From Sulfurimonas sp. HSL3-1 (GTDB taxonomy: Bacteria > Campylobacterota > Campylobacteria > Campylobacterales > Sulfurimonadaceae), in NCBI RefSeq assembly GCF_039645995.1, contig NZ_CP147920.1, forward strand, positions 744,001 to 808,000: a DNA stretch of 64,000 nt, in the 5' to 3' direction. Made by a program: the position numbers and the translations under genes. Shown here one piece after another: positions 49,484 through 64,000 of the stretch (positions are counted from its first letter, which is position 1; every line of letters starts with the position of its first letter). The notes beneath the pieces are model-generated. The model did no database searches. It was not told the origin of the DNA and worked only from the letters and a program-made list of their open reading frames with translations.

Positions 49484-50185
49484 TCAGGGGCGGCCCAGGA
49501 CGGACTCGAACATCGCGAAAGCTTTGCGCAGCCAGACCTTGGTGCGCTGGCGCTCCATCAGGCTCAGGTGGGCGGTGCCGTTCTCTTTGAGATTGGCGGC
49601 GGCCCAGAAGCTGAAGGTGTATTTATCGATTTTCTGCATGGTCGGGGCGTGCAGCGCGGGCAGTACCACCTCTTTAAGCGTACCGTTCGCCTCGCTTGAA
49701 ACGGAGGCGATGACGTCGTCGACTTCGGAGAAATCGCTGCCGCGTCCCTCGTTTTTGACGACGGCGCAGGTCATGACGACGCTGTATTTCGGCAGGAATT
49801 TTTTCAGTAGCTGCACGGAATCCTTGCCGCCGTCGACGAGGTACCAGTAGACGATCTCGATCCCCGTCTCTTCACACATCCCAAGAACGTCATTCTCTTC
49901 GATCCAACGGTCAAGGAAACGCTCGGACTGCGCCGGCAGGTCCACCAGAACGTTGATGTCTTTTTCCAGCGCCAGTTCCATGATCTTGTCGCTGCTCTCG
50001 AAAAAGTCCAGGTCGATGGCATCGGTGAACTGCTCGTAGTAGCGGGTGAGTGACGCGTGGGAACGGTCCGCGTCCAGTCCGACAAAAGCGACATCGTTGT
50101 CGATAAAATACTGCGAAAGCAGGCGCGCGAAGACGGACTTGCCGACGCCTCCTTTCTCTCCTCCGATAAAGTGAATCATACTCAT
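49484..50185 (-). CDS. Orphan ParA/MinD-type ATPase
   Basis: 233 residues. Deviant Walker A GGEKGGVGKSVFARLLSQYF near the N terminus, GLDADRSHASLTRYY, and NVLVDLPAQSERFLDRW as Walker B-like region. It resembles mobilisation-type or positioning ParA proteins rather than Soj, and there is no adjacent ParB. ATG at 50185 chosen behind GGAGAG; another ATG lies 15 bases upstream. Could position a membrane or cytoplasmic cargo; cargo unknown. Confidence 0.8.
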   Translation of the reverse strand: MSMIHFIGGEKGGVGKSVFARLLSQYFIDNDVAFVGLDADRSHASLTRYYEQFTDAIDLDFFESSDKIMELALEKDINVLVDLPAQSERFLDRWIEENDVLGMCEETGIEIVYWYLVDGGKDSVQLLKKFLPKYSVVMTCAVVKNEGRGSDFSEVDDVIASVSSEANGTLKEVVLPALHAPTMQKIDKYTFSFWAAANLKENGTAHLSLMERQRTKVWLRKAFAMFESVLGRP

Positions 50186-50356
50186 TGTTTCTCTCTCCAT
50201 ATCATGTGATGTATCACGGATATATTGTGCGCGTATAGTAGCGCTGCGGATATAAATGCGGGCTGTGGATCCGCAGGCAAATCGGAAAATTTCTGAAAGA
50301 TTACACTAGACAGGACGCCTGCAATGCTTCGCCGAAATAACATCCTCCCAAAAGAC

Positions 50357-50845
50357 TCATTGTTGATTTTTGTATCGGGAAAGTTTCGCTTTGACCGTCG
50401 ATGTCGCCTGCTCGAGTATGGACTTGACTTCTTCGAAGCTCGTCGCTTTGTCGGCGTTGAAATCGATAAGCCGATGCTTTGTCCAGCGTGCACGATAGCG
50501 ATCGTCAATCGCAAACCTCACTTCCTGCAGGGCCGGCTGCCGATGGACATAGTGGCCAATCACCTCCACCGAGGCTCTTTCCAACGCGCAATAAAGATCC
50601 AGCTTTTCTGATTGTGCGCAATCGGGCACAGGGGCTTTTCTCCAGGCGCTTTCATTGTGCAGCAGCGCATCCGCCCTACTGAGAATCTCCAAATCGACCG
50701 GCGTAACGCGAACGTCCCTCCGCTCATAATCCGGCAGACCCAAAACGATGCCGTTTTCGGTTTTGTAGACACCGATGACGCCGAAAATGATAAAAGAGCC
50801 CAGGAGCAGGAGAGACAAAAGGGTATAGAGAATGTACTTTTTCAT
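50357..50845 (-). CDS. Hypothetical membrane-anchored protein
   Basis: 162 residues with one N-terminal membrane helix (ILYTLLSLLLLGSFIIFGVIGVY) and a periplasmic remainder containing two Cys (CAQSEKLDLYCALERA) that could form a disulfide. No recognised domain. Between it and the ParA-like gene lie 171 bases without a gene, and no attC-like site. Confidence 0.7.
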   Translation of the reverse strand: MKKYILYTLLSLLLLGSFIIFGVIGVYKTENGIVLGLPDYERRDVRVTPVDLEILSRADALLHNESAWRKAPVPDCAQSEKLDLYCALERASVEVIGHYVHRQPALQEVRFAIDDRYRARWTKHRLIDFNADKATSFEEVKSILEQATSTVKAKLSRYKNQQ

Positions 50846-50944
50846 GAATCGAGCCTTTATCGGACAGCTCCTCTATGCCGACAATGATGGCACATGTGCT
50901 TTTGGCAATTGTACTTCATCTCCCGGAAACGGGCAGGAAATCTC

Positions 50945-51241
50945 CTATTTCATATACCTTTTTGTCAATCGGCAAAAGTCGTAAAAGTCGCTCAGCATCA
51001 AGTAGCGGATTTCGACGTCTTCAAACTTCTTCTTCAAGATGGCATGGCCCTGCAGGTAGAGCTTGACATCGTTTTGGAACTCTTTGGGATATTCAAGTTT
51101 TTCGGCTCCCAAAGAGGAAAAGCAATCCAAAAATTCAAAAAAGAGCGCCGTGACGATCTTCTCTTTTTCCGGTGTCCTGTTTGAGAGAAAGTCCGTTGTC
51201 TCCTCAAATGTCTCGCATATTTTCGTCAAACACGCATTCAT
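50945..51241 (-). CDS. Small hypothetical protein
   Basis: 98 residues, soluble, Phe/Leu-rich and helical (EKEKIVTALFFEFLDCFSSLGAEKLEYPKEF, ILKKKFEDVEIRYLMLSDFYDFCRL). No recognised motif. Codon use is less GC-rich than flanking genes. Confidence that it is expressed is moderate. Confidence 0.55.
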   Translation of the reverse strand: MNACLTKICETFEETTDFLSNRTPEKEKIVTALFFEFLDCFSSLGAEKLEYPKEFQNDVKLYLQGHAILKKKFEDVEIRYLMLSDFYDFCRLTKRYMK

Positions 51242-51328
51242 TTATATCCTCTTTACTCTGGTCTGTCGGAAAGGAAGTACAAAAACTGTACCTGCTGCTG
51301 AAATGCGACATGAAGGAGATCTCTTTTG

Positions 51329-52909
51329 TTATAGATCAGCCCACCCTTCGTCAATAAGCCATAGTGCAATGAGCATCATCAGAAAATAGCACGCCAGCAG
51401 CGTGTCCATGCCTGTCCACTTTAGCGCAACGGTGTGTCCCGCGGTGTAATCGGCCCCCTTCTTGGATGTTTTAAAACGGCTCATCGAAAGCATCCATGCG
51501 CCCGAATAGGCCACGACAAACCCCGTCACGTTCCACCACATCCACATCACTTCCGGGTGGAAAAGCCATAAGAAGAGGTTAACGCCGACGCCGCCAACGA
51601 GGCCGGTCAGTATGGCGCTGCTGCCGATGTGCCTGTGAAGCGCGCCGGCGAGGAAGACGGCCAAAACGGGCCCGTAAAAGGCCGAACCGATCTTGTTGAT
51701 CGCTTCAATGACGGTATCGGCGATCACACCGACCATCAAAGCGAAGAGGATGACGGCGATGCCCCAGAAGAGGGTCGTGATCTGGCTCAGACGGATCTCT
51801 CTCGCTCCCTGGGTGTGCTTCTCTTTCAGGACAAAATCATGCAGCGTAACGGCGGAGAGGGAGTTGAGCGCCGAGTCGATGCTGGACATGGCCGCGGCGA
51901 GAATGGCGGCGATCAGCAGCCCTTTCACCCCTCCCGGAAGGTACGCCAGGATAAACTGGGGGATGAGGTGATCGGGGGAGGAGGCGGCGACACTCGCCTG
52001 GAGTGCACTGTCCTGCAGATAGAGCGTGCCTACGGTAATGCCCATCAACACGTACAGCAGCGTCAGCGGGAACCGCGCAAAGCCGTTGAAGTAGAGGGAG
52101 CGTTTGGCGTCCTCGATGCTCCTGGCGGAGAGTTCCCGCTGCACCTGGCTCTGGTCCGTTCCGTAATAGGCCGTATAGAGAAAAAATCCGCCGAAGAGAA
52201 AGGCCCAAAACGGCATGCCGCCGTCACTGCCGAGCCCCCAGCCAAAATCGAGTGTCTGCAGCCGCGCTTTGGGGAAGGTGTCGACAATGGCCCCGAACCC
52301 GCCAAGGAGATCGACGGCGATGGCGATGGAGACGATGACACCCAGCAGAAGCAGCCCCATCTGGAAGATGTCCGAATAGACAACGGCCCGCATGCCGCCG
52401 AGGGTGTCGTAGATCAGAATGATGAGGCCCATCGTAAGGATGGAGATCCAGAGTTCAAACCCGGTGATACTTTGCATCACGATGGCCGTCGCATACAGAG
52501 CGATACCAGTCCCCAGGGCACGGCTGAGCAGAAAGAGGACGGCAACCGTATTGCGGACGCCGGTGCCGTAGCGCAGCTGCAGGTACTCATAGACACTGAC
52601 AAGCTTCAGCTTCCGAAAGAGCGGTATGAGAAAAATGGACGTTACGATCATGGCCAGGGGCAGGGCCAGCTCGTACTGCAGCCATGTCAGGCCGCCGCCC
52701 TCTTTGACGGCGACAAATGCAGGGATGGAGATAAAGCTGATGGCGGAGCTCTGTGTCGCCATCGTCGAGATGCCCACGGCCCACCACGAGAGCTTGCGGT
52801 CGGCGACATAGTAGTCATCCTGGTCGCGGTTTTCCTGACCGATAAAATAGCCGAAGAGCAGCAGCAGTATAAAATAGGCACCGATAACGTACCAATCTAG
52901 TAAATCCAT
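51329..52909 (-). CDS. Sodium:solute symporter (SSS family)
   Basis: 526 residues with about 13-14 membrane segments. LDWYVIGAYFILLLLFGYFIGQ at the N terminus, DYYVADRKLSWWAVGISTMATQSSAISFISIPA (sodium-site region) and YYGTDQSQVQRELSARS are SSS signatures. Sugar, sialic acid, proline or carboxylate may be carried; the SglT-like pattern leans to sugars, without certainty. Single gene. Confidence 0.92.
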   Translation of the reverse strand: MDLLDWYVIGAYFILLLLFGYFIGQENRDQDDYYVADRKLSWWAVGISTMATQSSAISFISIPAFVAVKEGGGLTWLQYELALPLAMIVTSIFLIPLFRKLKLVSVYEYLQLRYGTGVRNTVAVLFLLSRALGTGIALYATAIVMQSITGFELWISILTMGLIILIYDTLGGMRAVVYSDIFQMGLLLLGVIVSIAIAVDLLGGFGAIVDTFPKARLQTLDFGWGLGSDGGMPFWAFLFGGFFLYTAYYGTDQSQVQRELSARSIEDAKRSLYFNGFARFPLTLLYVLMGITVGTLYLQDSALQASVAASSPDHLIPQFILAYLPGGVKGLLIAAILAAAMSSIDSALNSLSAVTLHDFVLKEKHTQGAREIRLSQITTLFWGIAVILFALMVGVIADTVIEAINKIGSAFYGPVLAVFLAGALHRHIGSSAILTGLVGGVGVNLFLWLFHPEVMWMWWNVTGFVVAYSGAWMLSMSRFKTSKKGADYTAGHTVALKWTGMDTLLACYFLMMLIALWLIDEGWADL

Positions 52910-52978
52910 ACGGTTCCTTTGGCTGCAGCGTTAAAAGATAATGCCCTATTTTTGCCCATTTGTGAAATGCAGCTGCCC

Positions 52979-53689
52979 TCAGTAGATCCCCGGAAACAGG
53001 CGATAGCTTACTTCCTTCGCATAATCGGGGTACCCGGGAAGCTCCTCATGAAGGGTCTTGTCTTCAAGCGCGGTCCGGATCACGGCGATGAGCAACGCCG
53101 CCGCGGCGGGGAGAAGTGTCCAGAGAGAGTTCAGGGCGAGGATGATGCCGGCAAGGGCCAGAAGGTTTCCCGCATAGCCCGGGTGGCGAACGACCCGGTA
53201 AGGGCCGCTGTCGCAGACCGTATGCCCCCGGTCCGTCTGGATACGTACCGTCGTGGAGAAAAAGCGGTTCTCGACGATCGCCCAGGCCGCAAATGCGTAC
53301 CCTAGTGTGATGATAATGAGGCCGAGAACGGTGAGCCATGCCGGCATGAGCGGCGTCCACGCATAACGGTGGTCGAGCCCTGCGACGATGACCAGGGGAA
53401 AAGAGAGGCTAACGGCCATCATCGGAGCAAGAACTTTGTCCCATGGTTTCGCGTTTTTAGCCTTCTCCAGGCTGGCCCTCTCTGCGAGAATGCCCGGATG
53501 CCGTTTTTCCGCCAGGAACCGTCCGCCGACACCGGCAAGAAACAGCAGCACGGAGTAGACCCAGCCCTGCCACCATCCAACATCGCCACCGCAGAGCAGC
53601 AGCACCAGCGGGATGATGAGGTAAAGGAGGATCACGTTGCGCCACAGACGGGGCTGGTTTTTATTTGGATGAACAGTTTTCAATGCCAT
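52979..53689 (-). CDS. Isoprenylcysteine carboxyl methyltransferase-like membrane protein
   Basis: 236 residues with five or so membrane segments. The C-terminal motif YRVVRHPGYAGNLLALAGIILALNS with a following conserved Glu region (ALEDKTLHEELPGYPDYAKEVSYRLFPGIY) is the ICMT/PEMT family fold that binds S-adenosyl-methionine. Substrate in bacteria unknown. It lies just outside the last attC-like site, so it could be either the chromosome flank or a cassette. Confidence 0.85.
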   Translation of the reverse strand: MALKTVHPNKNQPRLWRNVILLYLIIPLVLLLCGGDVGWWQGWVYSVLLFLAGVGGRFLAEKRHPGILAERASLEKAKNAKPWDKVLAPMMAVSLSFPLVIVAGLDHRYAWTPLMPAWLTVLGLIIITLGYAFAAWAIVENRFFSTTVRIQTDRGHTVCDSGPYRVVRHPGYAGNLLALAGIILALNSLWTLLPAAAALLIAVIRTALEDKTLHEELPGYPDYAKEVSYRLFPGIY

Positions 53690-53729
53690 ATCTTTACTCC
53701 GGAATCAGCCATGATTTCAATACGTACGC

Positions 53730-53805
53730 CACCAACGTTTGAACTGCCCCATCAAATGACGCCCGCGCGCTTTTGACGGGGCTTGACCGATTTTCTATGT
53801 TTACA
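53730..53805 (-). repeat. attC-like site (cassette end) after the metallopeptidase gene
   Basis: On the minus strand the site begins with TGTAAAC overlapping the stop codon and ends with AACGTTGGTG. Inner arms GCCCCATCAAA (53746-53756) and TTTTGACGGGGC (53771-53782) pair well. The AACGTT junction before the R' box is shared with the other sites of the array. Confidence 0.65.
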
Positions 53806-54367
53806 AACGGTGGGTTTCTTCCCACAGGCGCTCTTGGCCTACCCTGATGTACCAATCGTCGAATTGGGAACGGTAGTGTTCAAAAGGGTCTTTTAGCTTG
53901 GGACGGGGGTCTTTGCTGAGGGAATATGCCATCCCCTCGGTGAACCATTTTGGAGCCCGTAAAACACTGATCATACCCAATCTTTCATTTTGAAGATGAT
54001 GGATCATTTCGTGCCTTACATAATACCGTTTCCAGGCCCGGGGACCGATAATGATGCCGAAAGTACCCAGGGTGATCGCAGAGCGCCTTCCCAAGCCGAA
54101 CGACTCGGAACAGGCTTCTGAACTGCAAAATACAGTGCGCGGAGCATGTCTGATCCCGCCGACGGAGGTGCCGACGAAGTGCAGCGCTTCATTATACAGA
54201 GCGGTCGCGTCTTCCAGGCGGGAAGCATCGTCCGTGCATATCGCGTCGCTGAAGCACGGAACACCGGCTAGTTCCGGGGCAAGAATCCGAACCGGTTTAT
54301 AGAATGCCCACGTAGAGCTGATAATCACTGCAATGAGCAAGGCGGCTATCGGAACTGCTTTTTTCAT
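53801..54367 (-). CDS. Secreted or membrane-anchored zinc metallopeptidase-like protein
   Basis: 188 residues, N-terminal signal/anchor helix (VPIAALLIAVIISSTWAFY). The zinc motif RHEMIHHLQNE is HExxH, and the downstream WFTEGMAYSLS supplies a Glu as a possible third ligand, the gluzincin arrangement. Two Cys pairs in the mature part suggest disulfides. Similar short peptidase-like proteins are common in mobile cassettes. Substrate unknown. Confidence 0.78.
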   Translation of the reverse strand: MKKAVPIAALLIAVIISSTWAFYKPVRILAPELAGVPCFSDAICTDDASRLEDATALYNEALHFVGTSVGGIRHAPRTVFCSSEACSESFGLGRRSAITLGTFGIIIGPRAWKRYYVRHEMIHHLQNERLGMISVLRAPKWFTEGMAYSLSKDPRPKLKDPFEHYRSQFDDWYIRVGQERLWEETHRL

Positions 54368-54382
54368 ACTCTTACTATATTC

Positions 54383-54409
54383 GTATAACGTAAATGGAGT
54401 CGGTTACGT
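54383..54409 (-). repeat. Possible short attC remnant
   Basis: GTTATAC (R'-like, minus strand of 54383-54389) and ACGTAAC (minus strand of 54403-54409) with a small CGTAA/TTACG hairpin between them. Only 27 bases long, too short for a working attC; may be a degraded site or chance. Confidence 0.3.
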
Positions 54410-54684
54410 CAACCGTTTCGACTTCTCCAGGCGCTGCCCATCAGATAAAATGACCCGATCGACAAGCCCGAAATCAGCAAGGCACCAATACCCATAACGA
54501 TGACTCTGACGATGCTTTTTGGCTCCATGAACAAGTCGTAGACGATGTGACCGGAAAGATATCCGAATGTCACGGCTGCTACAGCCATGAGCAAGACAAT
54601 GAGATATGTAAACACTTTTCTGGGGATGAGCGCTGCAAGGGTCTGGCCGATCAATTCCTCGATAAGAAAATCAATCAATGGCAT
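54409..54684 (-). CDS. Small two-helix membrane protein
   Basis: 91 residues with two hydrophobic segments (VFTYLIVLLMAVAAVTFGYLSGHIVYDLF and VIVMGIGALLISGLSIGSFYLMG). No recognised family. Its start overlaps the end of the SRPBCC gene by 14 bases, so both probably travel as one cassette. Confidence 0.7.
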   Translation of the reverse strand: MPLIDFLIEELIGQTLAALIPRKVFTYLIVLLMAVAAVTFGYLSGHIVYDLFMEPKSIVRVIVMGIGALLISGLSIGSFYLMGSAWRSRNG

Positions 54685-55138
54685 CCCTGCCTGGTTGCGG
54701 ACTTGCCTCTGCCCGCAGTTTCAGGGCCTGATTCATCTCCTCGAACCCGCGTCTGGTGTCGCTGTCCAGACTGGAGCGAAAGAGTCCTACCAGGATGCCG
54801 CTGAAGCGCTCGTTCTGCTGAAAGCGCACCTTGTCCTCGCCGAGCGCTTCGATGACGAATGCATGCTCGCCGTCAAAGAGACCCGGGAACAGAAACCGGC
54901 CCAGCCACCTCAGTTCGCGCCCGGCTTCAGCGGCGAGGACCGCAGGCGAGAAACGCATAGGTTTGCTACCGCTCGGCTGGATCTCGACCTGAAGCCGCTT
55001 ACCCTGGGTTGGGGTGCCCTGTATCGAACGGATGAAAGGATTCCATTGGGGGTATGCAGTGAAATCGGCCAGGATCTCCCATACCCGTTCAGCGGGTGCA
55101 TCAATCTCTATTTCCGTATGTAGTTCGTGGATAGCCAT
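54671..55138 (-). CDS. SRPBCC-fold (START/Bet v1-like) protein
   Basis: 155 residues. HTEIEIDAPAERVWEILADFTAYPQWNPFIRSI is the polyketide-cyclase/SRPBCC signature, with VEIQPSGSKPMRFSPAVLAAEAGRELRWLGRF following. Small ligand-binding fold; widespread and functionally diverse. Co-directional and overlapping with the small membrane-protein gene. Confidence 0.85.
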   Translation of the reverse strand: MAIHELHTEIEIDAPAERVWEILADFTAYPQWNPFIRSIQGTPTQGKRLQVEIQPSGSKPMRFSPAVLAAEAGRELRWLGRFLFPGLFDGEHAFVIEALGEDKVRFQQNERFSGILVGLFRSSLDSDTRRGFEEMNQALKLRAEASPQPGRDAID

Positions 55139-55158
55139 ATGGTTTCTGTGTCAATGAT

Positions 55159-55230
55159 GTTCATCGTTTAAAAGAGCGATCAAAATTCGCATTATAGTCG
55201 GTCACTTGGGATTCGCTGGGAATGTCAAAT
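55159..55230 (-). repeat. Degenerate attC-like site
   Basis: Carries CGTTTAAAAGAGCGATCAAAA on the plus strand, closely matching the L'-R' half of the sites at 56680 and 58085 (CGTTTGACATGAGCAATCAAAA, CGCTTAAAATGAGCAATCAAAA). The other half is poorly conserved. Confidence 0.5.
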
Positions 55231-55500
55231 ATCCATAGCGGTGTAGAACAGGTCATCCGTTCGATTGTCTGTTGCCGTATCATTTTCTTTGTATTTTCTC
55301 AGCAACCATATTTCGAAGACTGCTCCGATCAATGGAACGCCCAATATGACGATGGTTTTGAAAATTTTTGTTCTTCTTGTATAAAGCATTTCTTCCAATA
55401 AAATAGACATGATTGCGCCAATGTCAACAGCTATTACCGTCCAAATGAGAAATAGATAAACACCAGTCATATTATTTCCTAACAATTCAATGGCATTCAT
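55225..55500 (-). CDS. Small membrane protein
   Basis: 91 residues with two membrane helices (MTGVYLFLIWTVIAVDIGAIMSILL and IFKTIVILGVPLIGAVFEIWLL). The second stretch resembles PLDc_N-type small membrane modules, which are often found alone in bacteria, but the match is not secure. Codon use is clearly AT-rich compared with the core genes. Confidence 0.6.
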   Translation of the reverse strand: MNAIELLGNNMTGVYLFLIWTVIAVDIGAIMSILLEEMLYTRRTKIFKTIVILGVPLIGAVFEIWLLRKYKENDTATDNRTDDLFYTAMDI

Positions 55501-55807
55501 TTTAGCAGATTATTGTAAATATGTACATTTTTTTAAACAGACTAAAACGTAATTTATTTCTATTTCTAATAATATACAGATGAACCCTATGGAAATTTGC
55601 CAATGCGGTATCGAGGCGATGGAGACAAAGCGGATAGCCGTGTTATTCGTCAAAAGTGCTGGAAATAATGGATAGTGGTGTATGGGAGGAGGAAAAAATG
55701 CTTTGAAAACCTTCTGATGTGCTGCATACAACAGAGCTTCGTTGACGGGTAGGAGAAGAATCGACAGATCAAGGGCAATAGGTGCAATTCATAGGCTTTT
55801 TATCTGC
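55501..55807. other. Gene-free AT-rich part of the cassette array
   Basis: Between the small membrane-protein gene and the attC site at 55808. A 73-codon open frame on the minus strand (55510-55731) has no ribosome-binding site and no recognisable protein features, so I do not call it. The stretch could hold a decayed gene or a promoter carried by the cassette. Confidence 0.5.
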
Positions 55808-55880
55808 GCTTAACGCTGAGAATGACTCATGAAACGGGCGCAGGCGGGTTACTGATTGGGTTCCACTGAATTTGTTAGGC
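55808..55880 (-). repeat. attC site (best example of the array)
   Basis: On the minus strand it runs from R'' GCCTAAC (55874-55880), directly abutting the stop codon of the upstream gene, to R' GTTAAGC (55808-55814). Both fit the consensus RYYYAAC and GTTRRRY, and they are complementary at 6 of 7 positions. Length 73 bp, in the normal attC range, with imperfect inner arms (CCCAATCAGTAAC against GTTTCATGAGTCATTC). Confidence 0.8.
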
Positions 55881-56135
55881 TCATTTTGCGTTCCATTCGT
55901 AGACGGTAACGATGGATGACTTCGAAGTATGCACCGGGTCACTGAACGCTATGGCCTCGGCCTCTTCAAGACTATCAGCTTTGATCAAATAGGCACCGCC
56001 GCTCTTGTCCGTAAACGGACCGGCAAGTTCAAGTTTTCCTCGTTGTCTCAGGTCATCGAGAAAGGCATAATGCGCATCAATGACCGATGGGTCGAACTGG
56101 GGCGTGCGAAACGTAGTTATAAGGTATCTATACAT
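55881..56135 (-). CDS. YciI-like protein
   Basis: 84 residues, alpha/beta ferredoxin-like fold of the YciI family: YRYLITTFRTPQF, HYAFLDDLRQRGKLELAGPFTDKSGGAYLIKADSLEEAEAIAFSDPV. The His/Asp pair thought to form the YciI active site is partly present (the central His of AHYAFL). Same cassette as the P-loop kinase gene upstream, with no attC between them. Confidence 0.85.
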   Translation of the reverse strand: MYRYLITTFRTPQFDPSVIDAHYAFLDDLRQRGKLELAGPFTDKSGGAYLIKADSLEEAEAIAFSDPVHTSKSSIVTVYEWNAK

Positions 56136-56166
56136 TCAAATTCCTTTTTTTGGTATGTCATTTGGA

Positions 56167-56664
56167 TTAAATATCTCCTGCCAGACGTAGGATATTGAGT
56201 TCCTCGTCCACAGTCGGAGCCTCAAAGAATTGGGTAACATGGTTGAACACCGCTTCATTGTCGAACTGTGCCCGTTCCGGCTGCTCGGTTCGGCGCTTTG
56301 CGATCTGCGTTAGACACTGTGCATTGCTCACGTCGAGAAAGATAAGTTCATGCTCACATGCAGCTTCGGTGCAGAGCTGTTTGAACCACGCTCTCTGCCT
56401 GACCGTATTCGCCGGAAAGTCCATCACCACGTTCGTGCCCGTATTGATGATCTGCAGCACATGCAGTTTCACAAACGGCTTGATCATCTTGGAGAATTTC
56501 AGGTAATCGTCGAATGTGTTGATCTGGCCGGGGTAATGCGATGATAGCCAATCGTCTTCGGAGAGAAGCACCGCATTTTTTTCGGCCGACACGGCTTTTG
56601 ACTTCGTCGATTTTCCGGCTCCCATCTTTCCGCAGAAAAATGTAAGTGTTCCTTTTGGTTTCAT
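56167..56664 (-). CDS. P-loop kinase-like ATPase (AAA_33 / zeta-toxin-like fold)
   Basis: 165 residues. Walker A FCGKMGAGKSTKSKA near residue 11, LSEDDWLSSHYPG after it, and VVMDFPANTVRQRAWFKQL as the second motif; a basic lid RRTEQPERAQFDNEAVFNHVTQFFEAP follows. These features fit small polynucleotide- or phosphotransferase-type kinases widespread in cassettes and plasmids. Substrate unknown. Shares a cassette with the YciI-like gene. Confidence 0.8.
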   Translation of the reverse strand: MKPKGTLTFFCGKMGAGKSTKSKAVSAEKNAVLLSEDDWLSSHYPGQINTFDDYLKFSKMIKPFVKLHVLQIINTGTNVVMDFPANTVRQRAWFKQLCTEAACEHELIFLDVSNAQCLTQIAKRRTEQPERAQFDNEAVFNHVTQFFEAPTVDEELNILRLAGDI

Positions 56665-56679
56665 AATCCCTTCTTTTAT

Positions 56680-56762
56680 GCATAACGTTTGACATGAGCA
56701 ATCAAAAAGCTGCGCGCGAGTTTTTGATCGGTCTCCGATGAGTGGTCAAACCTTTGTTTCAA
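56680..56762 (-). repeat. attC-like site after the phosphatase gene
   Basis: R' GTTATGC (minus strand of 56680-56686) preceded by CAAAC. Strong inner arms GAGCAATCAAAAA (56697-56709) and TTTTTGATCGGTCTC (56721-56735). The R'' box is unclear; TTGAAAC (minus strand of 56756-56762), inside the end of the gene, is the best candidate. Confidence 0.65.
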
Positions 56763-57180
56763 GCTCCATGAGCTTTTTCCAGGCCTTTTTCGGCTTAAAG
56801 CCCTCTGGTGCGATCAGTTTCGCATCCGGCTGATTCAAGACAAGCCTTTTATATTGAAAAACAAACGCAGATGCCCTGTAGTTCATGATGCAGTGAATGA
56901 ATACTTTTTTCTTCTCATCCTGCAATGTTTTCAGAAGATGCAAGAACAGTGTGAATCTCTCTGTTCCCGGGTTTTTCCATGTTATCGGTATGTGAATATA
57001 CATCATCCCGTTTTTCGAAACAATTTTATCCTCTTCTTTCAACGCGCCTTTGTTGTGCATCGCCAGGTTGATGACAACGTCAAAACCGTTCTCTGCAATG
57101 CGCTTGAACTGTTTTTTCGTGGGTTGTCCTGAGGTGGAAATATTGTCGTTGACTTTTATATAGTTGAGTATTGATTCCAT
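56746..57180 (-). CDS. Protein tyrosine phosphatase-like protein (DUF442/beta-lactamase-hydrolase-like type)
   Basis: 144 residues. ISTSGQPTKKQFKRIAENGFDVVINLAM is the N-terminal signature, and the catalytic loop reads HCIMNYRASAF: Cys97-x4-Arg102, the short loop used by this subfamily rather than the classical Cys-x5-Arg. ATG at 57180 chosen behind GGAG; GTG two codons earlier is possible. Cytosolic. Encoded in a single-gene cassette. Confidence 0.85.
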   Translation of the reverse strand: MESILNYIKVNDNISTSGQPTKKQFKRIAENGFDVVINLAMHNKGALKEEDKIVSKNGMMYIHIPITWKNPGTERFTLFLHLLKTLQDEKKKVFIHCIMNYRASAFVFQYKRLVLNQPDAKLIAPEGFKPKKAWKKLMELETKV

Positions 57181-57195
57181 CACCACTCCATTGTA

Positions 57196-57267
57196 GTTAA
57201 ACGTTTAGACTGACCAATGAAAAAGACGTTTGTGCGTTTTTGATTGCTCTTCTCTGCATTGTTATAA
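57196..57267 (-). repeat. attC-like site
   Basis: R'' TTATAAC (minus strand of 57261-57267) and R' GTTTAAC (minus strand of 57196-57202). Inner arms GACCAATGAAAAA and TTTTTGATTGCTC pair well (57213-57225 with 57237-57249). Length 72 bp. Confidence 0.7.
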
Positions 57268-57270
57268 GCT

Positions 57271-57639
57271 CTAAAAAAGCCACTTCAAGATTGTTACAAA
57301 TCCAACGATCATTGAACTTAGAATAAGTGTCATAATGATTGATCCAATAAGCTTGCCAATAAATGTTTCTTTATCTTCATGGTAATAGGATTCATCCACT
57401 AGTTTGACACCTGCAAACTTTCCGAGTTCAAAATCTTCACATTCGCCTTTTTCTAATGCTGTTTGACAGGCCTTAATTAAGTTCTTGAGACTTTCTTCTG
57501 TTCCAACAAGAAAGTCTTCATCTTCTCCTGTCTGTCCATAACCTAGAAATGCATTTTTCTTATTTTTTTCCGGAATAGTGCCTTTGTATTCATCTTCAAC
57601 ATATTCCAAGATCAAACTTTTTTCTTTATCCATCTTCAC
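57271..57639 (-). CDS. Hypothetical tail-anchored protein
   Basis: 122 residues. Soluble acidic N-terminal part (KSLILEYVEDEYKGTIPEKNKKNAFLGYGQTGEDEDFLVG) and one membrane helix at the C terminus (LIGSIIMTLILSSMIVGFVTILKWLF), a tail-anchored layout. No recognised family. AT-rich codon use. One-gene cassette. Confidence 0.65.
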   Translation of the reverse strand: MKMDKEKSLILEYVEDEYKGTIPEKNKKNAFLGYGQTGEDEDFLVGTEESLKNLIKACQTALEKGECEDFELGKFAGVKLVDESYYHEDKETFIGKLIGSIIMTLILSSMIVGFVTILKWLF

Positions 57640-57656
57640 TCTTTTGTATTGTCAGA

Positions 57657-57721
57657 TTTGATCCGTTCAGCTCAAAAACCTGCATGCAGCTTTTTGATTG
57701 CTTTCCCTTGGGGTGTTATAT
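57657..57721 (-). repeat. attC-like site, R' end degenerate
   Basis: R'' ATATAAC (minus strand of 57715-57721) abuts the stop codon of the upstream gene. Inner arms AGCTCAAAAACCTGCATGCAG and its partner CTTTTTGATTGCTTTC form a clear hairpin. The R' box is hard to place. Confidence 0.6.
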
Positions 57722-58063
57722 CTATTCGAGCATAGCGGATATTACGCCATATGCAATAAATAAAACTGGTGAAGCTATCAATCCAAACATGACAATATGA
57801 AAGAGATTGAAATCGGGAAGACTGCTTTTGACTTCTTCAATTTCTGCAGCATACTGATCTTTAACCAAGAGCTTCAAACAAAAGAGTATGAATTGTACAC
57901 CTGTGAGAAATGCAAAAATGCTCATCAATATTGGGTGCGCACTCCAGTGAATTAGAATGATCGGGAATGCTATAAAAGCCCAAAAGATCATATGGACTGG
58001 ATTGAATACAAGCGCATTATTCGGGTCTATGAAAGTTATGATTTTAATGATTTTTTCATCCAT
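57722..58063 (-). CDS. Hypothetical three- to four-helix membrane protein
   Basis: 113 residues with hydrophobic segments MIFWAFIAFPIILIHWSAHPILMSIFAFLTGVQFILFCL and FHIVMFGLIASPVLFIAYGVISAML. No recognised family. AT-rich; its start overlaps nothing. One-gene cassette between two attC-like sites. Confidence 0.65.
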   Translation of the reverse strand: MDEKIIKIITFIDPNNALVFNPVHMIFWAFIAFPIILIHWSAHPILMSIFAFLTGVQFILFCLKLLVKDQYAAEIEEVKSSLPDFNLFHIVMFGLIASPVLFIAYGVISAMLE

Positions 58064-58084
58064 GTAATCTGTTGCCTCCTTACG

Positions 58085-58155
58085 ATATCACGCTTAAAAT
58101 GAGCAATCAAAAAACGCACGTCGGTTTTTGATTGGTCTCCTGTGCCTTGTTGGCA
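58085..58155 (-). repeat. attC-like site
   Basis: R'' TGCCAAC (minus strand of 58149-58155) 6 bases from the stop of the upstream gene, R' GTGATAT (minus strand of 58085-58091). Inner arms GAGCAATCAAAAA (58101-58113) and TTTTTGATTGGTCTC (58125-58139) pair almost perfectly and match the site at 56680. Length 71 bp. Confidence 0.7.
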
Positions 58156-58161
58156 AAAGCG

Positions 58162-58536
58162 CTATGGCAGTACACCGCCTTCTTTCTTGACATAGTGAAT
58201 TCCTTTGTCATCCACAACCGTTTCATATCCAAGCACGGTCCAAACTTGGCAGAAAATAATTTTTCGAACGACATATCTTGCTACTTCTTCATCCGTCACA
58301 TACATGCCAATAAAATTGTTTACTGTCTCGGCACAAAATTCTTTTGATGCGGGCAATTTCTCAAAGCACTGTTCTTTTGTCATATTGCCATCTGTCATTT
58401 CTTTTGCCCTTCGACATATTTGTTCATCATTATCAGAGGCATTTATAATGGACAAAATGATTTCTGATGTCTCCATTGTTTCTGCAATTGCAGCAATAGG
58501 GAGAAGTATGAAAATAAGAAGTGCGACAAAATGCAT
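58162..58536 (-). CDS. Secreted hypothetical protein
   Basis: 124 residues with a signal peptide (cleavage after AIA, about residue 18). Mature part has four Cys and a helical middle (SEIILSIINASDNDEQICRRAKEMTDGNMTKEQCFEKLPASKEFCAETVNNFIGMYV). No recognised family. One-gene cassette. Confidence 0.65.
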   Translation of the reverse strand: MHFVALLIFILLPIAAIAETMETSEIILSIINASDNDEQICRRAKEMTDGNMTKEQCFEKLPASKEFCAETVNNFIGMYVTDEEVARYVVRKIIFCQVWTVLGYETVVDDKGIHYVKKEGGVLP

Positions 58537-58561
58537 CTGGTATCCTTTGAGTTGTGATTTT

Positions 58562-58650
58562 GTTTAACCGCAATCGCCAAAATATTTATGGAATAGGTTG
58601 CTATAGCTTATGACCCGGTATCGTTTTTTGATTTTCAATGCTTGTCAGAT
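58562..58650 (-). repeat. attC-like site, longest of the array
   Basis: R' GTTAAAC (minus strand of 58562-58568) fits the consensus; the R'' candidate ATCTGAC overlaps the stop codon of the 126-residue protein. An arm GAAAATCAAAAAACG is shared with other sites, but the interior pairing is weaker. Length 89 bp. Confidence 0.5.
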
Positions 58651-59025
58651 ATTTGGATGATTAAAGTCATATTCCGTCCACCACTTGATGTTGTATATCT
58701 CTTCATTTTGAGCGAGCACTTTGCTAAGTGCTTTTTGTATTGTCTCAACCGTTTGTGTCGTTGAAATTTTTTTGAAAAGGAATTTTCTAACGTACGGTTT
58801 TCTTGGCTCGATGAAGCAGAGAAAGCCATCGACGTACTCTTTACACTGGCCACAGCCAATCCAAATTGGGAATGCATCATTGCATATTGGAATCGTCCAT
58901 CCCCAATCCTCACTGAAAGGATCCCTGACTTGAACACCTTCCTGCTTCAGCTGTTCGAACAATACAGTCGCAAGTTCTTGAACCGAAGAAACTAGAGTGG
59001 AACGGAACTCTACATGTGTTTCCAT
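58645..59025 (-). CDS. Hypothetical protein
   Basis: 126 residues, soluble. Aromatic-rich (DPFSEDWGWTIPICNDAFPIWIGCGQCKEYVDGFLCFIEPRKPYVRKFLF), with a paired Cys motif CGQC and several Trp residues. Such small Trp-rich proteins often resemble immunity proteins or cassette orphans, but I recognise no family. It is the first gene of the array as read from its probable attI side. Confidence 0.6.
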   Translation of the reverse strand: METHVEFRSTLVSSVQELATVLFEQLKQEGVQVRDPFSEDWGWTIPICNDAFPIWIGCGQCKEYVDGFLCFIEPRKPYVRKFLFKKISTTQTVETIQKALSKVLAQNEEIYNIKWWTEYDFNHPNI

Positions 59026-59268
59026 GCTATTGTCACCCAGCTATTAATCAGTTTACATTTGAAAGTACTATAGAACATCTTTGGTTAGAAAAACCTGGAA
59101 AATAATAACAATATACAATATATTAAATCTTCTAGTGTGCCGTAAAGCAAAAAAGAGTGCAAGGTTTTTATCGAAATAGGGGGATAGATTACTAACTTGT
59201 AGGGCTGCAAGCAGAGTTCCCCATTAAGGACAAGTCATGATTGTGGAGGTGTTAATTTAAAAGAGCAT
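59026..59268. other. AT-rich gap between the cassette array and the EI24 gene
   Basis: About 240 bases with many A/T runs. No ORF, attI, integrase fragment or tRNA was recognised. If an integrase had been lost it would have stood at this side. Confidence 0.5.
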
Positions 59269-59289
59269 CAAAAGCCCTTTGGACTTTTG
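59269..59289 (-). terminator. Terminator of the EI24/YtfJ unit
   Basis: CAAAAGCCC (59269-59277) pairs with GGACTTTTG (59281-59289, one G-T/A-C mismatch) around TTT; on the minus strand a T-rich tail (GCTCTTTT) follows. Also resembles the inner arm of the attC-like sites, so the boundary of the array is not certain. Confidence 0.55.
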
Positions 59290-59303
59290 AAATAGACGGA
59301 AAG

Positions 59304-60161
59304 TTACGAGGGCAGTACGTCCTGAGAGCCGTTCGAGACTTTGTCTGCAGCGCTTTTCGCGGCTGTGGCGCTTTCGTGGTGCGCTTCGACCTCGACACTC
59401 TTGCGGAACATCGAGTGCGTGAGAACGATGACGTTGAAGACGGGGGTGATGTAGGCGGCGAAGGGGACCAACGAGAGCAGGTAGAGCCCGAGGGTCGTCA
59501 TTCTTACTTTCCCGCCGTGGAAGGCCATGATCAGCTTGAAGCGCTCCTTCGTCGTCGTTTCCGAGGCGACGTCGAGCAGGTAGAGCTTGTGGAACAGGTA
59601 GTAAAAGGGGAGGTTGAAGGCGACGAGGTTCAGCATCGGAACGAAATAGAAAGGTGTGAGCACCAAAAAGAGCAGGAGCATAATGACGACATGCTTCAGC
59701 GAGGCGAGGAGGATGCCTGCAATGGAGCCGTGGTGTTCCAGCGGCAGGTGGCTGTAGTGGCGAGCGTGGATCTCACGCACGATATAGGGCGTCAAAAAGC
59801 CGATGATGGCCAGTGCGACGAACATGGCAAGGATGAACGTAGCAATCCCACCGACGGTAAAGACGATGAAACTGACCAGCCAGGAGGTGACGGTGTGCTC
59901 CATCAAGAAGCGCAAAATGGCCGAGCCGCCTTCGACGGTGGTCGTTTCGCTCTGCGTCTCCACCACGCCGTTTTGCTGGGTCTGCTGGTGCTGCTCGACC
60001 TGCAGGGTGCTCTGTTCAAGGGCGTCCAGTCCGGCGCTCGCCGCACCGAAAAAGAGGACGTACATCACGAGCACAGTCCCAATGAAGGGGATGAGGGCAA
60101 ACTGGAGCATCCGCTTCGTAAAAAAGTCGCGGATGCTTACCGACCAGAGCGTTTCGTTCAC
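59304..60161 (-). CDS. EI24/CysZ-like membrane protein
   Basis: 285 residues with four or five membrane segments (FALIPFIGTVLVMYVLFFGA, WLVSFIVFTVGGIATFILAMFVALAIIGFLTPYIV, HVVIMLLLFLVLTPFYFVPMLNLVAFNLPFYYLFHKL). EI24 domain; CysZ relatives move sulfate. In this phylum the gene is common and of unknown substrate. Overlaps the ytfJ stop by 4 bases (ATGA). Confidence 0.88.
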   Translation of the reverse strand: MNETLWSVSIRDFFTKRMLQFALIPFIGTVLVMYVLFFGAASAGLDALEQSTLQVEQHQQTQQNGVVETQSETTTVEGGSAILRFLMEHTVTSWLVSFIVFTVGGIATFILAMFVALAIIGFLTPYIVREIHARHYSHLPLEHHGSIAGILLASLKHVVIMLLLFLVLTPFYFVPMLNLVAFNLPFYYLFHKLYLLDVASETTTKERFKLIMAFHGGKVRMTTLGLYLLSLVPFAAYITPVFNVIVLTHSMFRKSVEVEAHHESATAAKSAADKVSNGSQDVLPS

Positions 60162-60667
60162 ATGTGTTCCTTGATAAGGGAGATGATCTCGTCGAAGCTG
60201 CCCTGCGGCACCTCTCCCTCATAGAGATAGAGGACGTTGCCGCTTTTGTCCGTAATGATGATGTCGGAGTTGTCGTCGGCGACCTTCCAGGCGGAGACCC
60301 CTTTCTTGTGCATATCTTTGACATAGATCGTATCGGGGAACTTCTCCTGCTTCGCTTTGAGCGATTTGGCGATGGCGAAGTTCGGCAGCCAGGTCGCCTC
60401 CATGTTGATGATGGCGACAGAGGCGAAACGGCTGCGGTCGAAGTCTTCGGCCTTCAGGGCGTCGGAGAAGGGGTTGTTGAGGTCTTTCTCGTCCGGGTCG
60501 ACGTAGAAGATGACGTGGACCTTCTCTTTGAGCTCGTCGCTATTCCAAGGGGTACCGTCGACTTTGCCGCCGTCGTCGCCCTGAAGGTTAAGCGCCGGAA
60601 GGGGCTGGCCGGTCTGCAGGGCCATCAGGCTGAGCGTGAGCGCGAAAAGGGAGAGGAGGAGTTTCAT
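60158..60667 (-). CDS. ytfJ: YtfJ-family periplasmic thioredoxin-fold protein
   Basis: 169 residues with a signal peptide (cleavage after LMA). YtfJ pattern: GQPLPALNLQGDDGG, HVIFYVDPDEKDLNNPFSDALKAEDFDRSRFASVAIINM, and KVADDNSDIIITDKSGNVLYLYEG. Thioredoxin-like fold without the CxxC pair. Function unknown. First gene of the unit with the EI24 protein; a minus-strand TAGAAT lies at 60694-60699. Confidence 0.87.
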   Translation of the reverse strand: MKLLLSLFALTLSLMALQTGQPLPALNLQGDDGGKVDGTPWNSDELKEKVHVIFYVDPDEKDLNNPFSDALKAEDFDRSRFASVAIINMEATWLPNFAIAKSLKAKQEKFPDTIYVKDMHKKGVSAWKVADDNSDIIITDKSGNVLYLYEGEVPQGSFDEIISLIKEHM

Positions 60668-60693
60668 AGGGGTCCTTTGCGAGATTTATAAGA

Positions 60694-60699
60694 TTCTAG
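60694..60699 (-). promoter_or_regulatory. -10 box of ytfJ
   Basis: TAGAAT on the minus strand, 27 bases upstream of the ytfJ start codon. Confidence 0.5.
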
Positions 60700-60730
60700 C
60701 ATGGAAAGGCTTGGGATCAAATGCCCTTCT

Positions 60731-61696
60731 TCAGGTCTTGCTCCAGAGTTTTTCGTTGAGCTTCAGTTCCTCGACGATCCCGATGGAGGAGCGCAGGGTG
60801 CGGATGTAGCCCATGGCCTGATCGATGGAGAGCAGCGACGAAAAGACCGTCGGTTCGAAGAGGTCTTTGTCGTAGTCAATGGCGATCATGATCTTCTCGC
60901 CGTTAAAGGAGACGTAAACCTTGCTGCCCGTATCCTTCTTCAGTTTGAGCAGCCGCTGCATCATCGTGTGTGTGAGGATGTAGCGCGCTTCGATCTGGTC
61001 GGTGCCGTAGACGACGAAGGCTTTTTCAAAGGCGGGGTCGTCCATTCTGACGAGCTGGTCCTTGGTGAAGTTGCGCGACTGAAGCATCCCCCCGATAAAG
61101 GAGCCGAAAAGGTTCTCGGCCAGGTCGGGGAGGATGAGGGTGCGGCCTTTGAAGTGTTTGTTGAAGTCCGCGACAATAAAGAGCCCCTGGAAGATCGTGG
61201 ACCAGTGCTCCCGCCCTTTGGAGTCGCGGCTGCGGTGTTCGGCATGGATGTCGGAGAACTGCAGCGAGACGCCGTCGAGGGTACCGCGCACGAGGTCGTT
61301 ACCGCGGAAACGGTCGATGCGCTGCTCAAAGAGGTGGGAGAACTGAAAGAGCGACTGGGGAATGGCCGCATCCGGGGCGTAATGCAGCTCCTTTTCGATC
61401 GCTTCGATCAGGGGCCGGATGATCTTCTCCTTGAACCCGCTGCGGTAGCCGCTGATGAGCCAACGGAAGCCAAACCCGCCGATGGCGGTCGCCCCGACGC
61501 CGACCCAGATGTAAGACTCGTTAAAGCAGTGGCAGCTGTTGTAAATGGCGCCGATGATGAGCAGGGAGAGCGCTCCGAGGATGCCGAAGAGGGTCAAGAC
61601 CTTCTTGCGGACCGCGTTGCGCTCCTGCTCCAGCTCCTGCAGGGAGTCGTAGAGCTCCGTATAGTAGAAATCCGTCAGTTCCGATGCACTTTTCAT
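60731..61696 (-). CDS. DUF3137 membrane protein
   Basis: 321 residues. Two membrane helices near the N terminus (VLTLFGILGALSLLIIGAIY and YIWVGVGATAIGGFGFRWLI) and a large soluble domain with DUF3137 features (FRGNDLVRGTLDGVSLQFSDIHAEHRSRDSKG, FQGLFIVADFNKHFKGRTLILPD). It is regularly paired with LemA, as here (6 bases downstream of lemA). Function unknown. Confidence 0.88.
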   Translation of the reverse strand: MKSASELTDFYYTELYDSLQELEQERNAVRKKVLTLFGILGALSLLIIGAIYNSCHCFNESYIWVGVGATAIGGFGFRWLISGYRSGFKEKIIRPLIEAIEKELHYAPDAAIPQSLFQFSHLFEQRIDRFRGNDLVRGTLDGVSLQFSDIHAEHRSRDSKGREHWSTIFQGLFIVADFNKHFKGRTLILPDLAENLFGSFIGGMLQSRNFTKDQLVRMDDPAFEKAFVVYGTDQIEARYILTHTMMQRLLKLKKDTGSKVYVSFNGEKIMIAIDYDKDLFEPTVFSSLLSIDQAMGYIRTLRSSIGIVEELKLNEKLWSKT

Positions 61697-61702
61697 AAAG
61701 GA

Positions 61703-62257
61703 TTACTGTTTGAAAAGGGCTCCGACATCAACGTTTTTGCGTTCATCCTCGGTAATCTCGAAGACCTGTTTTCGGCGGTAGTTCATCATGTTGGCGAGGA
61801 TGTTCGTCGGGATCATCTCGATGGCGTTGTTGTAGTCCGTCACGGCCTGGTTGTAGGCACGGCGGGCGGCGGAGATTTGGGCTTCGACCTCGGAGAGGGT
61901 GCGCTGCAGGTGCATGATGTTTGTGTTGGCCTTGAGTTCGGGATAGCTCTCCACCGCGACCATGATGCTGCCCAGTGCGGAGGTGATCTGCTTATCCAGC
62001 GCGATCTTCTGTTCGTCGGAAATACCCGGTTTCATTGCCTGGGAACGCAGTTCGGTTACCTTCTCCAAGATCCCCCGCTCGTGCTGCATGTACTGCTGTA
62101 CGGAGCTGACAAGGTTCGGGATGAGGTTGTAGCGTTTCTTCAGCACGGCATCGATCCCGGCAAAGATGTTGTCGACCTGGTTCTTTTTGGCAACAAGGCT
62201 GTTGTACATCAATACGATGATGACGATGACGACGGCGAGGATGATGAGTGCAGTCAT
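61703..62257 (-). CDS. lemA: LemA family protein
   Basis: 184 residues. One N-terminal helix (ALIILAVVIVIIVLMYNSLV) followed by helical LemA domain: NQVDNIFAGIDAVLKKRYNLIPNLVSSVQQYMQHE, and TNIMHLQRTLSEVEAQISAARRAYNQAVTDYNNAIEMIPTNILA. ATG at 62257 chosen because it starts the membrane helix and follows a GGAG site; a longer open frame upstream is unsupported. Forms a unit with the DUF3137 gene. Confidence 0.93.
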   Translation of the reverse strand: MTALIILAVVIVIIVLMYNSLVAKKNQVDNIFAGIDAVLKKRYNLIPNLVSSVQQYMQHERGILEKVTELRSQAMKPGISDEQKIALDKQITSALGSIMVAVESYPELKANTNIMHLQRTLSEVEAQISAARRAYNQAVTDYNNAIEMIPTNILANMMNYRRKQVFEITEDERKNVDVGALFKQ

Positions 62258-62355
62258 GGCGGTACTCCGATGGAAATAATATCGTTTATTGTACTGAAAA
62301 TCGGGCGGGAATCCGCCATAGCGTCGGGATAAGTAAAACACAACGCGTCTACCGC

Positions 62356-62361
62356 TACAAT
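62356..62361 (+). promoter_or_regulatory. -10 box of acyP
   Basis: TACAAT, 19 bases upstream of the acylphosphatase start codon. Confidence 0.45.
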
Positions 62362-62380
62362 AAACAAAAAGGGGGTGCCT

Positions 62381-62650
62381 ATGCAGAGCAGACTATACGC
62401 GATCCGGGGCAGGGTGCAGGGCGTGTGGTACCGTGCAACCATCCAGCAGCTTGCCCAAGCGGCGGGAGTAAGCGGTTACATCCGCAATTGCAGCGACGGC
62501 AGCGTCGAAGCGGCCGTCAGCTGCCCGAACGACGACTGTTTCGATCAGTTTGAACGGCTGCTCTGGGAGGGGTCGCCGCTCAGCGTGGTCGACAACGTCT
62601 CTTATGACATCATCGAAGGGGTGTTCGAAGGGGGATTCGAACAGCGCTAG
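62381..62650 (+). CDS. acyP: Acylphosphatase
   Basis: 89 residues. Catalytic loop GRVQGVWYRATIQQLA with the active-site Arg, and the catalytic Asn in GYIRNCSDGSVEAAV. Hydrolyses acyl phosphates. ATG at 62381; GTG two codons earlier is possible. Its end overlaps the convergent flavoprotein gene by 4 bases. Confidence 0.94.
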   Translation: MQSRLYAIRGRVQGVWYRATIQQLAQAAGVSGYIRNCSDGSVEAAVSCPNDDCFDQFERLLWEGSPLSVVDNVSYDIIEGVFEGGFEQR

Positions 62651-63879: not shown

Positions 63880-63885
63880 AAAGGG

Positions 63886-63891
63886 ATTGTA
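63886..63891 (-). promoter_or_regulatory. -10 box of the HI0933-like flavoprotein gene
   Basis: TACAAT on the minus strand, 7 bases upstream of the start codon, which leaves almost no leader; an upstream alternative cannot be excluded. Confidence 0.4.
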
Positions 63892-63952
63892 GTGGCTGTC
63901 GGGTTAGTTTCGGATTAGTCTTGGAAAAGAATAAGGGGAGAAAAAAAGAAAA

Positions 63953-63968
63953 GGCACCCGAGGGTGCC
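63953..63968 (-). terminator. Intrinsic terminator of a minus-strand gene entering from the right
   Basis: GGCACCC (63953-63959) pairs perfectly with GGGTGCC (63962-63968). On the minus strand it is followed by TTTTCTTTTTTT, a good T-tract. Confidence 0.75.
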
Positions 63969-63982
63969 CGAAGGCGGCGGAA

Positions 63983-64000
63983 TTAATTCCAGCCGTCTTT
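63983..64000 (-). CDS. Possible C-terminal end of a gene entering from the right
   Basis: On the minus strand the last codons read K-D-G-W-N then TAA at 63983-63985, 14 bases before the strong terminator at 63953-63968. Only five residues are visible, so identity and even frame are uncertain. Confidence 0.35.
   Translation of the reverse strand, partial: KDGWN

Follow-up and report, generated by a model that had tools for sequence, protein, structure and literature searches.

The 53.7–59.0 kb region of the analysed stretch (hereafter the window: 64 kb, positions 744001–808000 of the 2,499,021 bp one-contig genome of Sulfurimonas sp. HSL3-1, here G000) is very probably a chromosomal integron remnant whose integrase gene, intI, was lost at this address, i.e., a cluster of attC sites lacking integron integrases (CALIN). 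Coordinates are window positions, unless given in kb of the genome. An integrase-less integron cassette array had been proposed for this region in the initial annotation, and the proposal is supported and refined here by an intI stump, an attI-type leader and the occurrence of several arrays in the genome. The CALIN reading is favoured since an attC model matches the region above chance and since gene order varies among relatives, both having been chosen beforehand as tests able to refute it. Integrons are platforms on which small mobile genes accumulate, and at this address such genes and their recombination sites persist while the gene of the enzyme is cut down to a stump. At least two attC sites are clustered with no integrase adjoining, as in a CALIN, and the functional intI that characterizes a complete integron is missing. 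Three more one-contig genomes of the same genus were used for comparison, namely G304 (the closest sister species), G191 and G359. The protein encoded by the flanking EI24 gene is 96% identical to the window copy in G304 and 88–89% identical in G191 and G359, and a relative at 85% identity was found in a Campylobacterales metagenome-assembled genome.

attC Sites

Rfam gave no match in 50000–64000 at E ≤ 1 and a model of our own was therefore built. This covariance model, R1, was trained on 16 attC sites adjoining integron integrases in other genera, the own genus being left out to avoid circularity. Over the 64 kb and on both strands, R1 retrieved four matches at E ≤ 10, all in the array region, on the cassette strand (minus) and behind stop codons, so that the attC covariance check suggested earlier did return matches above chance. 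Three of them are clear and one is marginal, all within 2.4 kb. The highest scores were obtained for site E (56680–56751; R'' GTTTGAC, R' GTTATGC; 42.3 bits, E 1.1e-7) and site B (58085–58155; R'' TGCCAAC, R' GTGATAT, the latter being GTTATAT in G304; R1 match at 58090–58150, 40.1 bits, E 4e-7), followed by site D (57197–57267; R'' TTATAAC, R' GTTTAAC; 26.4 bits, E 0.0012). Site F (55808–55880; R'' GCCTAAC, R' GTTAAGC), which had been singled out as the best of the array, is by R1 the marginal one and the weakest of the four (16.3 bits, E 0.42).

No further convincing site emerged from R1 with filters off, leaving unmatched four degenerate sites on the same strand: A (58561–58650; R'' ATCTGAC, ATCTAAC in G304), C (57645–57721; R'' ATATAAC), G (55159–55230; R' GATGAAC, GTTGAAC in G304) and H (53730–53805), the last being an attC-like hairpin at the distal end, absent in G304. 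As R1 misses them, these sites are named only from their position, from remnants of the R boxes and from the comparison with G304.

The attC-like inverted repeats reported behind the stop codons were indeed seen, and in several cases the R'' box abuts or overlaps the stop, as had been noted: TGA is directly followed by GCCTAAC at 55880 (site F), TAG by ATATAAC at 57721 (site C), and in site E the TGA lies inside GTTTGAC (56745–56751). An imperfect hairpin with L''/L' arms, set between the consensus boxes R'' RYYYAAC and R' GTTRRRY, is found with single departures in sites D, E and F; in site B the R' box reads GTGATAT. Identity between the window sites and the attC adjoining the intact IntI of G304 ranges from 76 to 91%, and the same sites adjoin intact IntI in both G304 and G252.

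The start (R') and the end (R'') of a cassette come from one circle, hence complementarity between them is expected. Genus-wide, such closure at all four variable positions was observed in 17 of 37 neighbouring R'/R'' pairs, compared with 131 of 4032 (3.2%) when all pairs are taken; within the window it reaches 4/4 from B to C and 3/4 both from D to E and from E to F. An own scan for R boxes and hairpins recovered few of the window sites, being weak because complementarity of R'' and R' was demanded inside one site, a property of the free circle and not of the array.

Cassette Turnover between Species

The locus is shared with G304 at 88–93% identity, with a GNAT and Asp/Glu racemase gene pair inserted at site F in G304 and one other cassette (175 aa) replacing the 113-, 120- and 144-aa cassettes of the window. 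Between the same flanking genes, PEMT and EI24, G191 and G359 carry other cassettes and none of the cassette genes of the window; a difference of 2.2 kb between sites separates these two genomes. The differences of the window from G304, G191 and G359 break at or within sites, and content thus changes by whole cassettes between relatives. The initial annotation had asked to look in related strains for the same sites with different genes, and this variation was found. A 1079-bp cassette pair is moreover 98.5% identical between locus 2 of G304 (see below) and a different locus of G359, with flanks at 85–90%.

Remains of the Integrase Gene and an attI-type Leader

With the TIGR02249 profile (cut-off 265 bits), no intact integron integrase was found in the window or anywhere in the one-contig genome, the best score being 58.7 bits; the absence of intI, claimed for the window, thus extends to the whole assembly as far as intact copies are concerned. 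The TIGR02249 matches of this genome were taken as other tyrosine recombinases, because they leave positions ~181–258 of the IntI profile uncovered, and were discarded.

The expected place of intI had been described as holding only the EI24 gene. This does not stand, as an intI stump sits there too: the last ~16 codons and the stop are retained at 59240–59290 on the plus strand (reading IVEVLI*KSIKSPLDF*), with 13 nt between its end and the stop of EI24. By blastn, nucleotides 59259–59288 match the intI 3' end of G304 at 93% identity (E 5.5e-6). Longer intI relics that align with the stump occupy the corresponding position in G191, where both intI ends are retained at the EI24 locus, and in G359, where the 3' end is retained together with an attI leader. 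Judging from these sequences, the window array most likely descends from a complete integron.

G304 is the sole sister species retaining the enzyme: its intact IntI (420 bits) lies 122 kb from EI24, with an attI and five attC. The orthologous locus 2 of G000 (919.7–922.7 kb) has an attI and three attC, intI being deleted except for its first ~36 bp. Remains of intI or attI-A, sought by tblastn and blastn, were found only at the EI24 locus and at locus 2.

Between the stump and the first cassette, an attI-type leader (type B) occupies 59041–59236 (minus strand), with the crossover expected at 59041^59040. It is 80% identical to leaders heading other arrays, its last 75 nt being 81–88% identical to the other copies, and its core AATGT-N4-T-AAT-AATAG^ is as in intI-adjacent attI of other genera. 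In six intI-adjacent integrons of such genera, the R'' of the first attC is exactly complementary to a GTT box located ~240–270 nt from intI and preceded by the shared core AATGT-N4-T-N-AATAAATAG. A matrix of the attI core scored 14–24 bits at the heads of intI-less arrays in the genus, whereas 50 kb of window sequence, scanned on both strands, gave no match above 10 bits. In the window copy the core GTT is mutated to GCT, thus this attI is probably weak or dead. Leaders of type B (~200 bp) head the arrays at the EI24 locus (window and G304), at locus 2 of G359 and at the 1176-kb and 1362-kb loci. Their last 75 nt are 81–97% conserved and the remainder 62–86%, except for the G000/G304 pair at 1176 kb (98%).

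A history consistent with these remains can be proposed. IntI, a tyrosine recombinase, would have inserted circular cassettes at attI (at G^TT, now G^CT at 59041), recombining them at their folded attC hairpins and so forming a minus-strand array, read from the leader, of about seven or eight cassettes. The intI next to EI24 would later have been deleted except for its final ~16 codons, and several attC sites and the attI core appear to be decaying, as expected without the enzyme. We infer that the cassettes were moved by IntI, that the leader functioned here as attI and promoter, and that the array is now frozen. Since the intI of locus 2 was lost as well, cassettes in G000 could be moved only by an IntI supplied from outside.

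Other Arrays in the Genome, the Genus and the Family

At least four further attC clusters were detected by R1 in G000, at 680, 920, 1176 and 1437 kb, together with isolated weak sites near 1348 and 1705 kb, and the sister genomes have attC clusters at corresponding addresses. In G304, one intact IntI coexists with about four attI cores heading intI-less arrays. At 1437 kb, the conserved flank ends exactly at the attI core and is then followed by four different cassettes in four species. One attC site at this address reaches 76 bits.

The family attI consensus is ATGTTCGTTGAATAAATAG^TTA, with a TATAAT immediately ahead of the crossover. Of the 147 family genomes, 48 contain the pattern WTGTNNNNTNAWTWAAKAGTTR, which has about 60 sites compared with about 10 for the reversed pattern. 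Thirty of these loci were fetched: intI lies within 1.5 kb in 6 and not in the other 24, at least 10 of which have correctly oriented attC downstream, 5 of these with exact closure to the first cassette. Some intI-less leaders resemble the intI-adjacent ones over the full ~230 nt, which fits plain intI loss. Others share only the last ~85–92 nt, with an abrupt edge (e.g., 94.6% over 92 nt, then nothing). Such short leaders could have arisen by deletion halted by selection on promoter and attI or by the spread of a small module, and either fits the sequences.

Several genera share a tiny cassette without ORF (open reading frame), in which GTTATCCGCTCRCTRCGYGACCGGATAAC precedes a G+C-rich stem (GGGGGCGCGGG...CCCGCGCCCCCGTTA). 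It often sits immediately at attI, and one array may hold up to three copies (L073 10941, 12691 and 19309; L074 6418; L078 7494, 6934 and 6046; L117 4576; L149 1519; L162 1519). The integron of G304 includes a MazF/MazE-type toxin-antitoxin cassette (L069 5124–5704), a kind of cassette frequent in sedentary integrons, and its locus is bracketed by a 50-bp direct repeat (82%; L069 1848–1897 and 10350–10399).

Genes of the Array and of Its Flanks

Many small co-directional genes, mostly unknown, had been recorded on the minus strand; eleven such ORFs were counted from 59025 down to 53801, the majority without Pfam family. The exceptions are a DSP-like phosphatase, an AAA_33 kinase, a YCII protein and a polyketide_cyc2 protein. 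PADLOC recognized no defence family among the ten proteins scanned. The array genes described below and the two genes flanking them, EI24 and PEMT, are all on the minus strand.

On the attI side, the array is bounded by the conserved EI24/CysZ-family gene (59304–60161; PF07264, E 4.5e-22), found at the same place in G304, G191 and G359. Next to the leader, cassette 1 (58645–59025; 126 aa, no family) and cassette 2 (58162–58536; 124 aa, with a weak NttA similarity below cut-off) are conserved in G304 at 92% and 98% aa identity, respectively. Cassettes 3 (57722–58063; 113 aa) and 4 (57271–57633; 120 aa) have no family and were not found in the sister-species loci. Cassette 5 (56746–57180; 144 aa) codes for the DSP-like phosphatase (PF22785, E 6.7e-8); its nearest relatives (54–70% aa identity) are in other families of the order, while a search of 379 genomes gave no match within its own family or genus, a distribution that speaks for the integron reading. 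No R1 site was found near the loci carrying these relatives, which therefore do not prove that cassette 5 travelled as a cassette. Cassette 6 holds two genes with no site between them, for the AAA_33 P-loop kinase (56167–56664; PF13671, E 7.7e-21; 94% aa in G304) and for the YCII-family protein (55881–56135; PF03795, E 1.4e-11). Cassette 7 (55225–55500; 91 aa) has 98% aa identity in G304. The 680-kb attC cluster of G000 encodes a relative of its protein (37% aa; L106 5148–5333).

Three further ORFs at 53801–55138, coding for a polyketide_cyc2-family protein, a 91-aa membrane protein and a 188-aa protein with weak similarity to a metalloprotease motif, are common to G304 only, and their status as cassettes is uncertain. 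The AT-richness attributed to the whole region was confirmed at 55–59 kb, where the GC content is 0.37–0.46 and GC3 (GC content at third codon positions) is 0.27–0.60 as compared with 0.71–0.84 in the flanking genes, whereas it does not extend to the ORFs at 53.8–55.1 kb, whose composition (GC3 0.58–0.65) is nearer the host. The distal flank is a PEMT/ICMT-family gene (52979–53689; PF04191, E 2e-11), likewise conserved in G304, G191 and G359. A sodium:solute symporter gene beside the array (51329–52909) is not at this place in G304 (gap 51444–52959), an indel with no obvious tie to the cassettes.

Alternative Explanations

Several points weigh against the CALIN reading or limit its reach. The E-values of R1 are rough, the calibration having been shortened, and the p value of cassette closure is only indicative because pairs from orthologous loci were counted as independent. 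The window attI has a mutated core and an R' that does not complement the first R''. Turnover has not reached every cassette, as some of the array is ~90% identical with G304, and a plasmid-borne intI outside the assembly may exist. As four of the eight sites are too degenerate for R1 and the genes at 53.8–55.1 kb are host-like, the distal third may not consist of cassettes. A smaller extent of the array, which leaves its kind untouched, is in fact quite possible, falling a little short of an even chance: the integron array would be the AT-rich ~55.2–59.0 kb, the remaining genes being of the host or otherwise acquired and site H a chance hairpin. Their GC3, the failure of R1 at sites G and H and the absence of site H in G304 agree with this limit, but these genes lie between the same flanks, they are missing from the G191 and G359 loci, and site G of G304 still has R' GTTGAAC.

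As to the nature of the repeats, ordinary hairpins (terminators, or elements like repetitive extragenic palindromes or miniature inverted-repeat transposable elements) between unrelated acquired genes might account for the terminator-like central stem AATCAAAAA...TTTTTGATT and for the degenerate state of some sites. This is hardly credible and was rejected, given that a model derived from IntI-adjacent arrays fits the complete R''-L''-stem-L'-R' layout, that R' and R'' show cassette closure, that the same sites stand beside intact IntI in G304 and G252, and that Rfam recognized nothing here. A fixed gene island was likewise rejected, cassette content being different in G304, G191 and G359. It is also improbable that the array never had its own intI and that an IntI acting in trans brought its cassettes in from other places, through off-target or attG insertion. 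The lack of any intI relic at the 680-, 1176-, 1348- and 1437-kb clusters would suit such a placement, as would the near-identical 1079-bp cassette pair at non-corresponding loci of G304 and G359. At the EI24 locus, however, the stump lies exactly between leader and EI24, the relics are longer and accompanied by an attI leader in G191/G359, and off-target insertion would bring no attI leader. A CALIN derived by intI loss at this address is thus the preferred reading. Possible, although rather doubtful, is the broader proposal that one IntI serves several platforms in trans in the genus and in part of the family, each intI-less attI being a ~85–200-bp attI/promoter module at a conserved address that receives and expresses its own array; the window array would be one such platform, decaying.

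CALINs are common and their origin is usually guessed. In this genus the intermediates stand side by side, i.e., a complete integron (locus 2 of G304), an attI with a few intI codons (locus 2 of G000), an intI without its middle (EI24 locus of G191/G359) and a stump with a mutated attI (the window). The sharp family consensus should moreover let the attI of chromosomal integrons be found by sequence, many of them standing without intI. Should such intI-less attI function in trans, the customary view in which a single integrase goes with a single attI and a single array would need widening.

Comparison with Known Systems

A literature search, with subscription papers outside its reach, found no description of attI-headed arrays without intI. 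Integrons have been reported from Campylobacterota, and intI loss is among the origins proposed for CALINs (PMC8618304). The window array agrees with the CALIN of Cury et al., as described in PMC8618304, in having at least two attC, small cassette genes in one direction and no integrase nearby, and differs from that description in retaining an attI-type leader and an intI stump and in being one of several arrays in its genome. Within the same phylum, integron remnants appear in a table of IntegronFinder results for Sulfurimonas autotrophica (In0 and a CALIN) and Sulfurovum sp. NBC37-1 (two CALINs); the entries of that table are a listing, without attI, array comparison or intI relics (PMC10295459).

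Insertion at attG sites (Loot et al. 2024, cited in PMC11023631 and discussed in PMC12444791) likewise allows one IntI to place cassettes at many chromosomal sites. The target here is, on the contrary, a 20–25-nt motif common to intI-adjacent attI, at addresses conserved between species. A parallel is offered by Xanthomonas, for which PMC12444791 describes an ancestral integron at ilvD, repeated intI loss in separate lineages and CALINs at seven conserved loci. The ancestral platform, the loss of intI and the further CALINs at conserved chromosomal addresses are all alike; the account of the distant Xanthomonas CALINs in PMC12444791 mentions no attI, whereas an attI core heads several of the distant arrays described here. 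Xanthomonas thus already provides known CALINs at conserved addresses, and the window array is a CALIN with unusual remains.

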